This document shows, piece after piece, positions 3,077 to 32,086 of a DNA stretch of 64,000 bases. Made by a program: the position numbers and the translations under genes. The stretch comes from Candidatus Heimdallarchaeota archaeon (GTDB lineage Archaea; Asgardarchaeota; Heimdallarchaeia; Heimdallarchaeales; Kariarchaeaceae): assembly GCA_026702845.1 (NCBI GenBank), contig JADCLS010000001.1, positions 620,001 to 684,000 of the forward strand, read 5' to 3'. Under the pieces are notes generated by a model. The model did no database searches. It was not told where the DNA came from and saw only the letters and a list, made by a program, of their open reading frames with translations. Positions within the stretch are counted from its first letter, which is position 1. The number at the start of each line of letters is the position of its first letter.

Positions 3077-5041
3077 GTGACAAGTTCAAATGCAATTCAA
3101 GGTGGACAGATTGGATTCATAAGCAAAATTCGTAACGAATTGACAGATATGTCTTCTGGTTTACGCTTCCGAAAGATAAAACAGAAGTTGTGGGTACGTT
3201 CTCTCTTTGTCAGTGGAAATCTAACTATAGTGCTCTTACTAGGCACTATAGCCACAATGGTTAGTTATGGGTGGCCATTCTTCAAGGATATTCAGGGTTT
3301 TATTGAGATAATATCTACTAATAATTGGTATCCTGCTGATGAATGGGGAGCAGGGCATTATGGTGCTCTTGCTATGATTTATGGAACATTTTTTGTGGGT
3401 ATCCCAGCACTAATCATCTCGATAGTTCTTGGAATTTCCACAGCAGTTGTTCTTTCTGAATATGTTCCCCAGAAAATCTCACGCAAAATTCAACCAATAA
3501 TAGAGTATATAGCAGCTATACCATCCGTCATATTTGGAGTTATAGCTTTTATTTACATGGATAAAATTATTAAATTCGTTTTTGGTGTCTCATCGGGAAG
3601 AGGTCCATTGAATGCATCAATAACCTTGGCTATTATGGCCACACCTATCATAGTATCTATTAGCTATGATGCATTACAATCAACTCCTCCTATGCAGCGT
3701 CATGCAGCTAAGGCATTTGGAGCTACAAGGTATGAGGTTTTCAGAGCAGTAGTACTTCCTCATGCCTTCACATCAATCAGTGCATCCATTCTTCTTGCTT
3801 TTAGCAGAGTATTGGGAGAGACAATGGTAGTATTGATGATTCTGGGTAATTCTCCTGTAATAAAATGGTCTTTCTTTAAACCAGCATACACTCTGACCTC
3901 AGCAATTGCCAATGAGATTGGTGATGCAAGATTTGGATCTGCTGAATTCAGTGTTCTCTTTGTTCTTGCCCTAATCCTCCTAATATTCTCCTTTCTTATA
4001 ATTTTGATTTCAAACCTTATCACAACAAAGAATAAATATTTTTTCAGTTTCTTGAGTTTATTGTTCATTCCAATCAGATTATTAGGTGGAACTACAAGGG
4101 ATATTCTTCAATTATTTGCAAAACAGAAGGAAATGAACCAACAAATGATTGAATCTAGGATTAAGAAGAGGATGTTTATTGATTACTTGGTTCAGGCTAT
4201 TCTAAGCACTATTCTATTAACTTTGATCGGTATGGTTTTCACCTTCTTATTTCTTGTTCTGAAGGATGGTGTAGCAGAGGTTTCAATCCGATTTATTATG
4301 AGTTTTCCCACTTTTAGTTCTCTTTTCAGAGGAGAATACGGTATTTATGGTGCAATAATTGGTAGTGGTGGCTTAGTTCTACTATCTGCTTTGATTGCAT
4401 TTCCGATTGCTACTGCTACTGGAGTATATTTGAGTGAATTTGCCAAACCCAGTAGATTGAAGAACTTCATACAAATGGCTATCATTAATATCTCTGCCAT
4501 ACCAAGTATTGTGGTGGGATTATTTGTTTATGGTGCCTTTTCAGTGGCCCTTAAGTGGGAGTCAGGAATCCTACCGGGGTCGATTGCTTTGGGAATCATG
4601 ATGCTCCCTATCGTAACTACTAATACAATTGAGGCATTACGGAATGTCCCCCAATATCATAAATACTCTGCTCTTGCACTGGGAGCTTCACATTGGGAAG
4701 CTGTGTCAAAACATAGATTACCTTATGCTTTGCCCTCAATAATCACCGGATATGTATTAGCCATGGCCAGAGTAATAGGTGAGACTGCACCTTTACTTCT
4801 CACTGCAGCTGCTTTTACCTATGCTGAGTCTCCATACCCTTCACAACTTATCCAGGAACCGATTAGAGCACTACCCTTTGAAATATACTATAATTTGCTC
4901 TTCTCTACCTGGCAAGGGGCTGCTGGATGGGCATTGGGTACTGCAGTGGTATTGCTTATCTTAGTGGCATTATTGAACACCCTTGCATATGCATTGAGGA
5001 TACTTATTCGTAAAAAGTACGAATACAATGGGAATATTTAG
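3077..5041 (+). CDS. Fused phosphate ABC permease PstC-PstA
   Basis: One 654-residue polypeptide holds both membrane subunits of the high-affinity phosphate importer. Residues 1 to about 325 match PstC, with the ATPase-contacting loop HAAKAFGATRYEVFRAVVLP near residue 209. After a charged linker rich in Lys, Gln and Glu (about 340-370), residues 370-654 match PstA, with its own loop YSALALGASHWEAV near residue 531. Each half has about six membrane helices. There is no stop or frameshift between the halves, and PstB follows 11 bp later with its own Shine-Dalgarno site. The start is GTG 3077, with GGAG ten bases before. PstC and PstA are normally separate genes, so the fusion fixes a one-to-one heterodimer. 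Confidence 0.92.
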   Translation: MTSSNAIQGGQIGFISKIRNELTDMSSGLRFRKIKQKLWVRSLFVSGNLTIVLLLGTIATMVSYGWPFFKDIQGFIEIISTNNWYPADEWGAGHYGALAMIYGTFFVGIPALIISIVLGISTAVVLSEYVPQKISRKIQPIIEYIAAIPSVIFGVIAFIYMDKIIKFVFGVSSGRGPLNASITLAIMATPIIVSISYDALQSTPPMQRHAAKAFGATRYEVFRAVVLPHAFTSISASILLAFSRVLGETMVVLMILGNSPVIKWSFFKPAYTLTSAIANEIGDARFGSAEFSVLFVLALILLIFSFLIILISNLITTKNKYFFSFLSLLFIPIRLLGGTTRDILQLFAKQKEMNQQMIESRIKKRMFIDYLVQAILSTILLTLIGMVFTFLFLVLKDGVAEVSIRFIMSFPTFSSLFRGEYGIYGAIIGSGGLVLLSALIAFPIATATGVYLSEFAKPSRLKNFIQMAIINISAIPSIVVGLFVYGAFSVALKWESGILPGSIALGIMMLPIVTTNTIEALRNVPQYHKYSALALGASHWEAVSKHRLPYALPSIITGYVLAMARVIGETAPLLLTAAAFTYAESPYPSQLIQEPIRALPFEIYYNLLFSTWQGAAGWALGTAVVLLILVALLNTLAYALRILIRKKYEYNGNI

Positions 5042-31645: not shown

Positions 31646-31729
31646 ATATATTTAATACAAATTGAAATTTCTTTCATAACACTTATTTTAAATGAGGTAA
31701 ATCATGATATAATTGAGGTGCAATAAAGC
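31646..31729 (+). promoter_or_regulatory. aIF1A promoter and leader with three mini-ORFs
   Basis: A TATA-like element (ATATATTTAATAC, 31646-31658) should start transcription near 31677. The leader then holds three start-one codon-stop triplets: ATG AGG TAA (31692-31700), ATG ATA TAA (31704-31712) and GTG CAA TAA (31718-31726). GAGGTG at 31715-31720 is a good Shine-Dalgarno site nine bases before ATA 31730. The third mini-ORF is in frame with aIF1A and its stop prevents any longer upstream start. Confidence 0.5.
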
Positions 31730-32086
31730 ATAGCTAAGAAAAAAACCACTAAAAAACAAAAAGGGAAAAACAAGACGCAAATAGACGATGAAGTAATTCG
31801 AGTTAGGTTACCAAATTCTGAGGACGGCGAAGTCCTAGGGCAAGTGATACAAACTTTGGGAGGTGGGCTCCTCCTTGTCAAATGTATGGATGGATATACA
31901 AGAAAAATCAATATACCTGGAAAATACAGAAAGAGATTATGGGTACGCCTTGGTGATATTGTAATTATTATTCCACAGTATGGTCTAGATGAAGAAGGAA
32001 AGGGACAGTTAGAACATAGATATAGAAAGAATGGAGCACAAATTCTCTACGAAAGAGGTTTAATTCCAGAAGAGTATATCCTATAA
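31730..32086 (+). CDS. eif1A: Translation initiation factor aIF1A, apparent AUA start
   Basis: The archaeal homologue of eIF1A/IF1, an OB-fold protein that binds the A site of the small subunit and helps choose the start codon. The core matches well (EVLGQVIQTLGGGLLLVKC, MDGYTRKINIPGKYRKRLWV, DIVIIIPQYG), preceded by a Lys-rich tail like that of eukaryotic eIF1A. Read in frame, the expected N-terminus AKKKTTKKQKGKNK begins after ATA at 31730, exactly where ATG is normal, with GAGGTG nine bases upstream; an in-frame TAA lies at 31724 and no NTG codon exists until GTG 31844, which would remove the tail and first strands. So the start is either a true AUA or a base error. Length would be 118 residues. 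Confidence 0.85.
   Translation: MAKKKTTKKQKGKNKTQIDDEVIRVRLPNSEDGEVLGQVIQTLGGGLLLVKCMDGYTRKINIPGKYRKRLWVRLGDIVIIIPQYGLDEEGKGQLEHRYRKNGAQILYERGLIPEEYIL

Follow-up and report, generated by a model that had tools for sequence, protein, structure and literature searches.

The gene for initiation factor aIF1A in this Heimdallarchaeota genome appears to start at AUA, behind a Shine-Dalgarno (SD) sequence. The explanation that we favour takes three things together: AUA is the genuine start of aIF1A, the lineage tolerates AUH starts (AUA, AUU or AUC), and the levels of aIF1A and its partner factor aIF1 are held in a way that depends on the stringency of initiation. We give this combined reading a probability of roughly 0.45. 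Positions below are those of the window, the whole 64,000-nucleotide stretch of DNA that was analysed.

A putative AUA start codon on aIF1A

The protein encoded in the window matches the Pfam family eIF-1a (PF01176) with an E-value of 1e-15, scoring 57.6 bits against a curated cut-off of 30.2. Six eIF-1A/aIF-1A models of NCBIfam also match, the best with an E-value of 1.9e-24, and all of them fall under their curated cut-offs (85.5 versus 91 bits and 74.8 versus 102.9 bits). From the Pfam domain and its close homologs we place the protein as a divergent aIF1A. Its RVRLP core is preceded by a basic N-terminal tail, and its start aligns with the Met of relatives.

According to the original prediction, the frame is closed upstream by a TAA at 31724, GAGGTG lies nine bases before an ATA at 31730, and no canonical codon occurs before 31844. 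Direct reading confirmed all of this (Table 1). The start region reads ...AATTGAGGTGCAATAAAGC-ATA-GCTAAGAAAAAAACC..., and no ATG, GTG or TTG is present in the aIF1A frame between the TAA and 31844. When we considered the 64 non-overlapping frames of the window with at least 90 codons each, the first canonical codon was found at a median index of 5. In aIF1A it is found at index 39, and no other frame of this set has its first canonical codon 39 or more codons in. We also compared the 16 codons 5' of 31844 with those of two relatives. Against locus L001 of genome G001, 3 are identical, 9 synonymous and 4 non-synonymous; against L002 of G002, the numbers are 4, 8 and 4. This stretch looks coding.

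Table 1. Features of the aIF1A locus in the window
Feature	Position	Strand	Basis
aIF1A coding sequence, AUA start to TAA stop (32084-32086)	31730..32086	+	sequence, Pfam, relatives
AUA start codon of aIF1A, kept in L001 and L002	31730..31732	+	conservation
GAGGTG, Shine-Dalgarno-like, 9 bases 5' of AUA	31715..31720	+	sequence
TAA in frame, closing the aIF1A frame upstream	31724..31726	+	sequence
GTG, first canonical in-frame codon of aIF1A, within the conserved core; not the start	31844..31846	+	
CTTATTTTAAAT, putative TATA-box-like element	31682..31693	+	by eye

If the TATA-box-like element is used, transcription is predicted to start about 20 bases 5' of the AUA. Two tiny ATG frames lie 5' of the SD sequence, at 31692-31700 (ATG AGG TAA) and 31704-31712 (ATG ATA TAA). 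In addition, GUGC at 31718-31721 can pair over a spacer with GCAU at 31728-31731, which links the end of the SD sequence to the first two bases of the AUA. This hairpin is present in the minimum free energy structures of the window and L001. The L002 structure differs, and by eye GUGU and GCAU are possible partners there with G-U pairs. The hairpin could conceivably affect access to the start.

The SD sequence and ATA are conserved in two relatives

We aligned the region with those of close relatives. ATA is found at the homologous codon in both L001 and L002, whose aIF1A proteins are 77% and 74% identical to that of the window, and the SD sequence is kept as well. The start region reads GAGGTGCAATAGC-ATA-GCAAAGAAG in L001 (with a longer leader, TTTGAGGTGCAATAGC-ATA-GCAAAGAAG) and AAGGTGTTATTGC-ATA-GCAAAAAAG in L002 (with a longer leader, CGAAGGTGTTATTGC-ATA-GCAAAAAAG), while the upstream DNA has otherwise diverged among the three loci. 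Because the SD sequence and ATA are common to three genomes, a base error in the window is very unlikely, and we rejected an error at 31730. The sequence tests support AUA as the start of aIF1A, as had been proposed.

A protein search with aIF1A returned 12 homologs. Ile is found where others carry Met in P0001 (MQSSIAKKK), P0002 (MRCNSIAKKK) and P0004 (MFLIARKNK). P0002 is encoded on the contig of L001, and its annotated start is a TTG that overlaps the SD sequence. Judged from its protein sequence alone, P0001 would fit a GTGCAA...ATA arrangement. For P0003, P0005 and P0006, the deposited protein begins within the core. The ATA codons in the DNA of L001 and L002 explain such annotations. A start within the core might also be expected if the true start of aIF1A were elsewhere or the explanation lay in an intron, a frameshift, a product truncated from 31844 or a sequence error. 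The TAA at 31724, the coding pattern 5' of 31844 and the SD sequence with ATA in three genomes all argue against such explanations, as do the two upstream ATGs, which open frames of two sense codons only. We regard them as very improbable.

AUA codes for isoleucine and the initiator tRNA appears ordinary

In the window, G001, G002, G004 and G008, ATA behaves like ATT and ATC, with Ile, Val and Leu at the aligned positions. Met makes up 2-4% of the residues aligned with ATA, a share like that at ATT and ATC. A code variant in which AUA is Met was therefore rejected.

We searched eight genomes for GGGCTNATAACCC. Five of them carry GGGCTCATAACCC, which we take to be the initiator tRNA sequence motif, once each, and ARAGORN calls a tRNA-Met(CAU) in all five. 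One GGGCTGATAACCC is also present in G003 and has no ARAGORN tRNA call. No UAU-anticodon form of the initiator tRNA was seen in this search, in which G009, G010 and G011 gave no match to GGGCTNATAACCC. With the usual CAU form in five of the eight relatives and no UAU form, a special initiator tRNA for AUA was also rejected, as far as sequences matching GGGCTNATAACCC are concerned. An ordinary CAU initiator tRNA would have to read AUA with a mismatch at the third position.

Weak aIF1A starts are common in the phylum

We use family, class and phylum for the groupings of our genome searches around G001, with no tree built, and the start assignments are our own reading from the SD sequence and alignment. 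Within the family, aIF1A starts with ATA in G001 and G002, with ATG in G003, G008 and G010, and with TTG in G004 and G009. Two aIF1A copies each are present in G003 (L003, L008) and G008 (L012, L009). When the 58 genomes of the class were searched, 53 matched and 49 were readable, and 39 of these 49 have a non-ATG start (ATA 2, ATG 10, TTG 25, GTG 4, GTG or TTA 8; the counts omit L045, which is at a contig end, G037, G040, G042 and the second copies in G003 and G008). In one clade (L043, L046-L051, L053), the start may be either GTG or a constant TTA nine bases later, at the position where other genomes have their TTG start. UUA may be the aIF1A start in this clade, which would be another oddity.

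Outside the class, 152 genomes gave an aIF1A match and 70 loci were read, two of which (L281, L313) were not assignable. Among the 68 assignable loci, TTG is the start in 33, ATG in 28 and GTG in 7. Non-ATG starts are thus found in 40 of 68 aIF1A loci, compared with 31 of 150 ortholog-consistent starts in the family set (ATG 119, TTG 16, GTG 15; P = 6e-8, kinship ignored). As a control we used uS19 in the other classes of the phylum, which starts with ATG in 28 and TTG in 2 of the best-scoring 30 of 204 genomes with uS19. These data indicate that a weak aIF1A start is widespread in the phylum, though not universal. ATA on aIF1A was seen in the family of the window only, plus one uncertain case, L313. 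This locus, from the distant Asgard genome G083, has ATA at the aIF1A Met position and an in-frame ATG nine codons upstream; it is possibly an independent ATA case.

One could argue that the weak codon is a fixed setting that keeps aIF1A low without feedback, as TTG may do in many Asgard genomes. That aIF1A starts with TTG or GTG across much of the phylum fits this, and a set dose may suit a small basic factor. However, many genomes have ATG on aIF1A, and the choice of the near-cognate AUA over UUG or GUG is left unexplained. We consider fixed tuning of this kind improbable.

The partner factor aIF1 carries ATA in three family genomes

The original prediction tied the near-cognate start to the inspection of start codons. 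If this is so, then aIF1, the second codon-checking factor, is expected to have a weak start too. The aIF1/SUI1 domain (PF01253) was found in 51 of the 58 class genomes. In the family, aIF1 is readable in six of eight genomes (it is cut in G009, and G011 has no match), and three of the six have ATA and no canonical start: G002 (AAGGTAAATAAT-ATA-TTC), G004 (GAGGTTGAACAACA-ATA-TTC) and G010 (GAGGTAGTGATTAATT-ATA-TTT). The G001 gene reads GAGGTAAGTTAATAG-TTG-TTT, and those of G003 and G008 read GAGGTTGA-ATG-ACA-ATA-TTC. Because the TTG of G001 is at the exact position of the ATA of the others, this codon is the likely aIF1 start. Elsewhere in the class aIF1 starts with GTG or ATG, with ATG in many genomes, so ATA on aIF1 is a feature of the family. 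To this extent the link to codon inspection gained support.

Other genes of the family also lack a canonical start

We screened the family and the window for further genes of this kind. We took the stop-to-stop frames for which other genomes had homologs and looked for sequence conserved ahead of the first canonical codon, with 369 genes evaluated. The window, G001, G002, G004 and G008 gave 34 flagged rows with frames of at least 75 residues, and the flagged rows of the other family genomes were also inspected. After sorting by one analyst, who was not blind, 10 of the 369 genes were left without a canonical start. The remaining rows were judged by eye to be antisense shadows, short frames or alignments extending some codons beyond a real ATG, GTG or TTG, and G001 C259+9456 was left out as a likely broken gene. 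The screen misses any gene in which a canonical codon happens to lie upstream, as in aIF1A of G001.

The ten genes are aIF1A (window, G002), aIF1 (G002, G004), uL1 (G004, G008) and four found once each: in G002, uS19, a CDC48-like ATPase and a methyltransferase-like protein, and in G004 a zinc-ribbon protein. The names of the last three were assigned by the analyst. For uL1, the start reads GGAGGTGATGACAG-ATA in G004 (L250) and GGAGGTGACAT-ATA in G008 (L243). To these a further search added a third uL1 gene, that of G003 (L246), where ATG, GTG, TTG and ATA are all absent and ATC is the probable start. These three apparent starts come just after GGAGGTGA, which overlaps a stop codon, and uL1 has ATG in the other five family genomes. 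Two apparent ATT starts are found on L179 of G002, one on uS19 (+ frame 3159-3602), which has ATG in seven of the eight family genomes, and one on the CDC48-like ATPase (- frame; GGTGAATTAAAA-ATT). Less certain are the methyltransferase-like gene (GGAGGAAGAAAA-ATA) and the zinc-ribbon gene (AGGTATGTAACT-ATT), each with a single homolog (36% and 31% identical, respectively). In aIF2-beta and aIF6 of the family genomes, ATG, GTG or other canonical codons are in place.

Upstream of nine AUH starts and two others, the SD match is 4-8 bases long. The methyltransferase-like and zinc-ribbon genes have at least 4 SD bases upstream, read by eye. In the family set, an SD sequence with at least 5 matched bases precedes 46 of the 150 ortholog-consistent starts.

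When comparing the two factors to the other genes, 4 of 10 aIF1A and aIF1 genes were without a canonical start versus 6 of 359 (Fisher P = 5e-5), a count that takes in the window aIF1A, the case that prompted the study, and comes from related genomes, so that the counts are not independent. Excluding G002, the comparison is 2 of 8 versus 3 of about 303 (P = 0.005, computed with a denominator of 313 and with kinship ignored). G002 has the most such genes in the family, 5 of 58 evaluated, and G001 shows no other clear case among 90 evaluated genes. We evaluated 179 genes in a control clade with TTG on aIF1A (three genomes, 60 kb each), and none was without a canonical start after inspection, again not blind, of 26 flagged rows. 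The difference from the family (10 of 369) has a P of 0.035. The family tolerates AUH starts, and the two codon-checking factors are over-represented among them.

Since AUH starts are also found on uL1, uS19, the CDC48-like ATPase and others, they are not confined to fidelity factors. It may be that start selection is relaxed throughout the lineage, and that AUA, AUU and AUC have arisen by drift, without regulation, on genes with a good SD sequence, aIF1A and aIF1 among them. The range of these genes, their high number in G002 and the 4 or more SD bases upstream of each AUH start agree with this, yet aIF1A and aIF1 are affected far out of proportion (4 of 10 versus 6 of 359), and G001 has ATA on aIF1A with no other clear case in its 90 genes. 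We consider tolerance without regulation possible but somewhat doubtful.

Discussion

In the combined explanation that we favour, a Shine-Dalgarno helix would set the AUA at 31730 as the start, the ordinary CAU initiator tRNA would read it weakly, and initiation there would be weak and dependent on stringency. The most likely use would be to hold the levels of aIF1A and aIF1 according to the stringency of initiation. More aIF1, and perhaps more aIF1A, would lower the rate at which their own AUA codons are used for initiation, which would make a negative loop like those of bacterial infC and eukaryotic eIF1. The poor start signal on aIF1A and aIF1 may keep both proteins in check. Feedback of this sort was part of the original prediction. 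The weak starts on both factors favour it, but AUH starts on other genes and the ATG or TTG of sister aIF1A genes do not support it as the only explanation, and the regulation is a proposed one.

Published work on related factors gives some background. In S. solfataricus, aIF1 was reported to destabilise the complex on a non-AUG mRNA (PMC6237735), and the same paper cites the finding that eIF1 restrains its own synthesis by way of an AUG in poor context. In yeast, residues of the eIF1A tail are described as bearing on the use of suboptimal sites, so the feedback through aIF1A could have another sign (PMC5756025). The C-terminal tail of uS19 is reported to adjoin aIF1A at the P and A codons (PMC7005279). 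Given this position, the apparent ATT start of uS19 in G002 is noteworthy, and it proves nothing.

The closest known case is bacterial infC, which starts at AUU and whose product, IF3, discriminates against AUU (PMC9410913). There, as here, the gene of a factor that tells start codons apart itself begins at a near-cognate AUH codon; here that codon is conserved. The infC start serves self-regulation. Unlike infC, the present case is archaeal, involves the proteins aIF1A and aIF1 and the codon AUA, and has a putative regulation. In addition, such starts are described as near-exclusive in E. coli, with two genes (PMC9410913), whereas six other screened genes and uL1 of G003 have them here. As with eukaryotic eIF1, its homolog aIF1 (SUI1) has a weak start site; in eIF1 this is an AUG in poor context, and here an SD sequence precedes ATA or TTG. 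Archaeal genes with UUG or GUG have weak but canonical starts, which are frequent on Asgard aIF1A, and AUA lies outside that set. One review names AUG, GUG and UUG as starts and not AUA, a term that occurs 0 times in its main text (PMC7531240). Among the titles and abstract openings listed from a mostly open-access body of literature, we found none reporting that an archaeal initiation factor starts at AUA.

Gene callers miss AUA, AUU and AUC starts on core translation genes, as P0002, P0003, P0005 and P0006 illustrate. Therefore, both the annotated N-termini and the statistics of start codons in such genomes should be checked.

A stronger version of our explanation would place both aIF1A and aIF1 under AUA, with each factor reading out and limiting stringency. 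This would be an archaeal infC loop, derived from older weak (UUG) aIF1A starts in Asgard archaea and possibly a forerunner of eukaryotic eIF1 autoregulation. We think this version unlikely. If it is true, bacteria, eukaryotes and archaea would each have a factor that inspects start codons and is itself translated from a poor start site, and the archaeal example would come from a phylum that is held to be close to eukaryotes.
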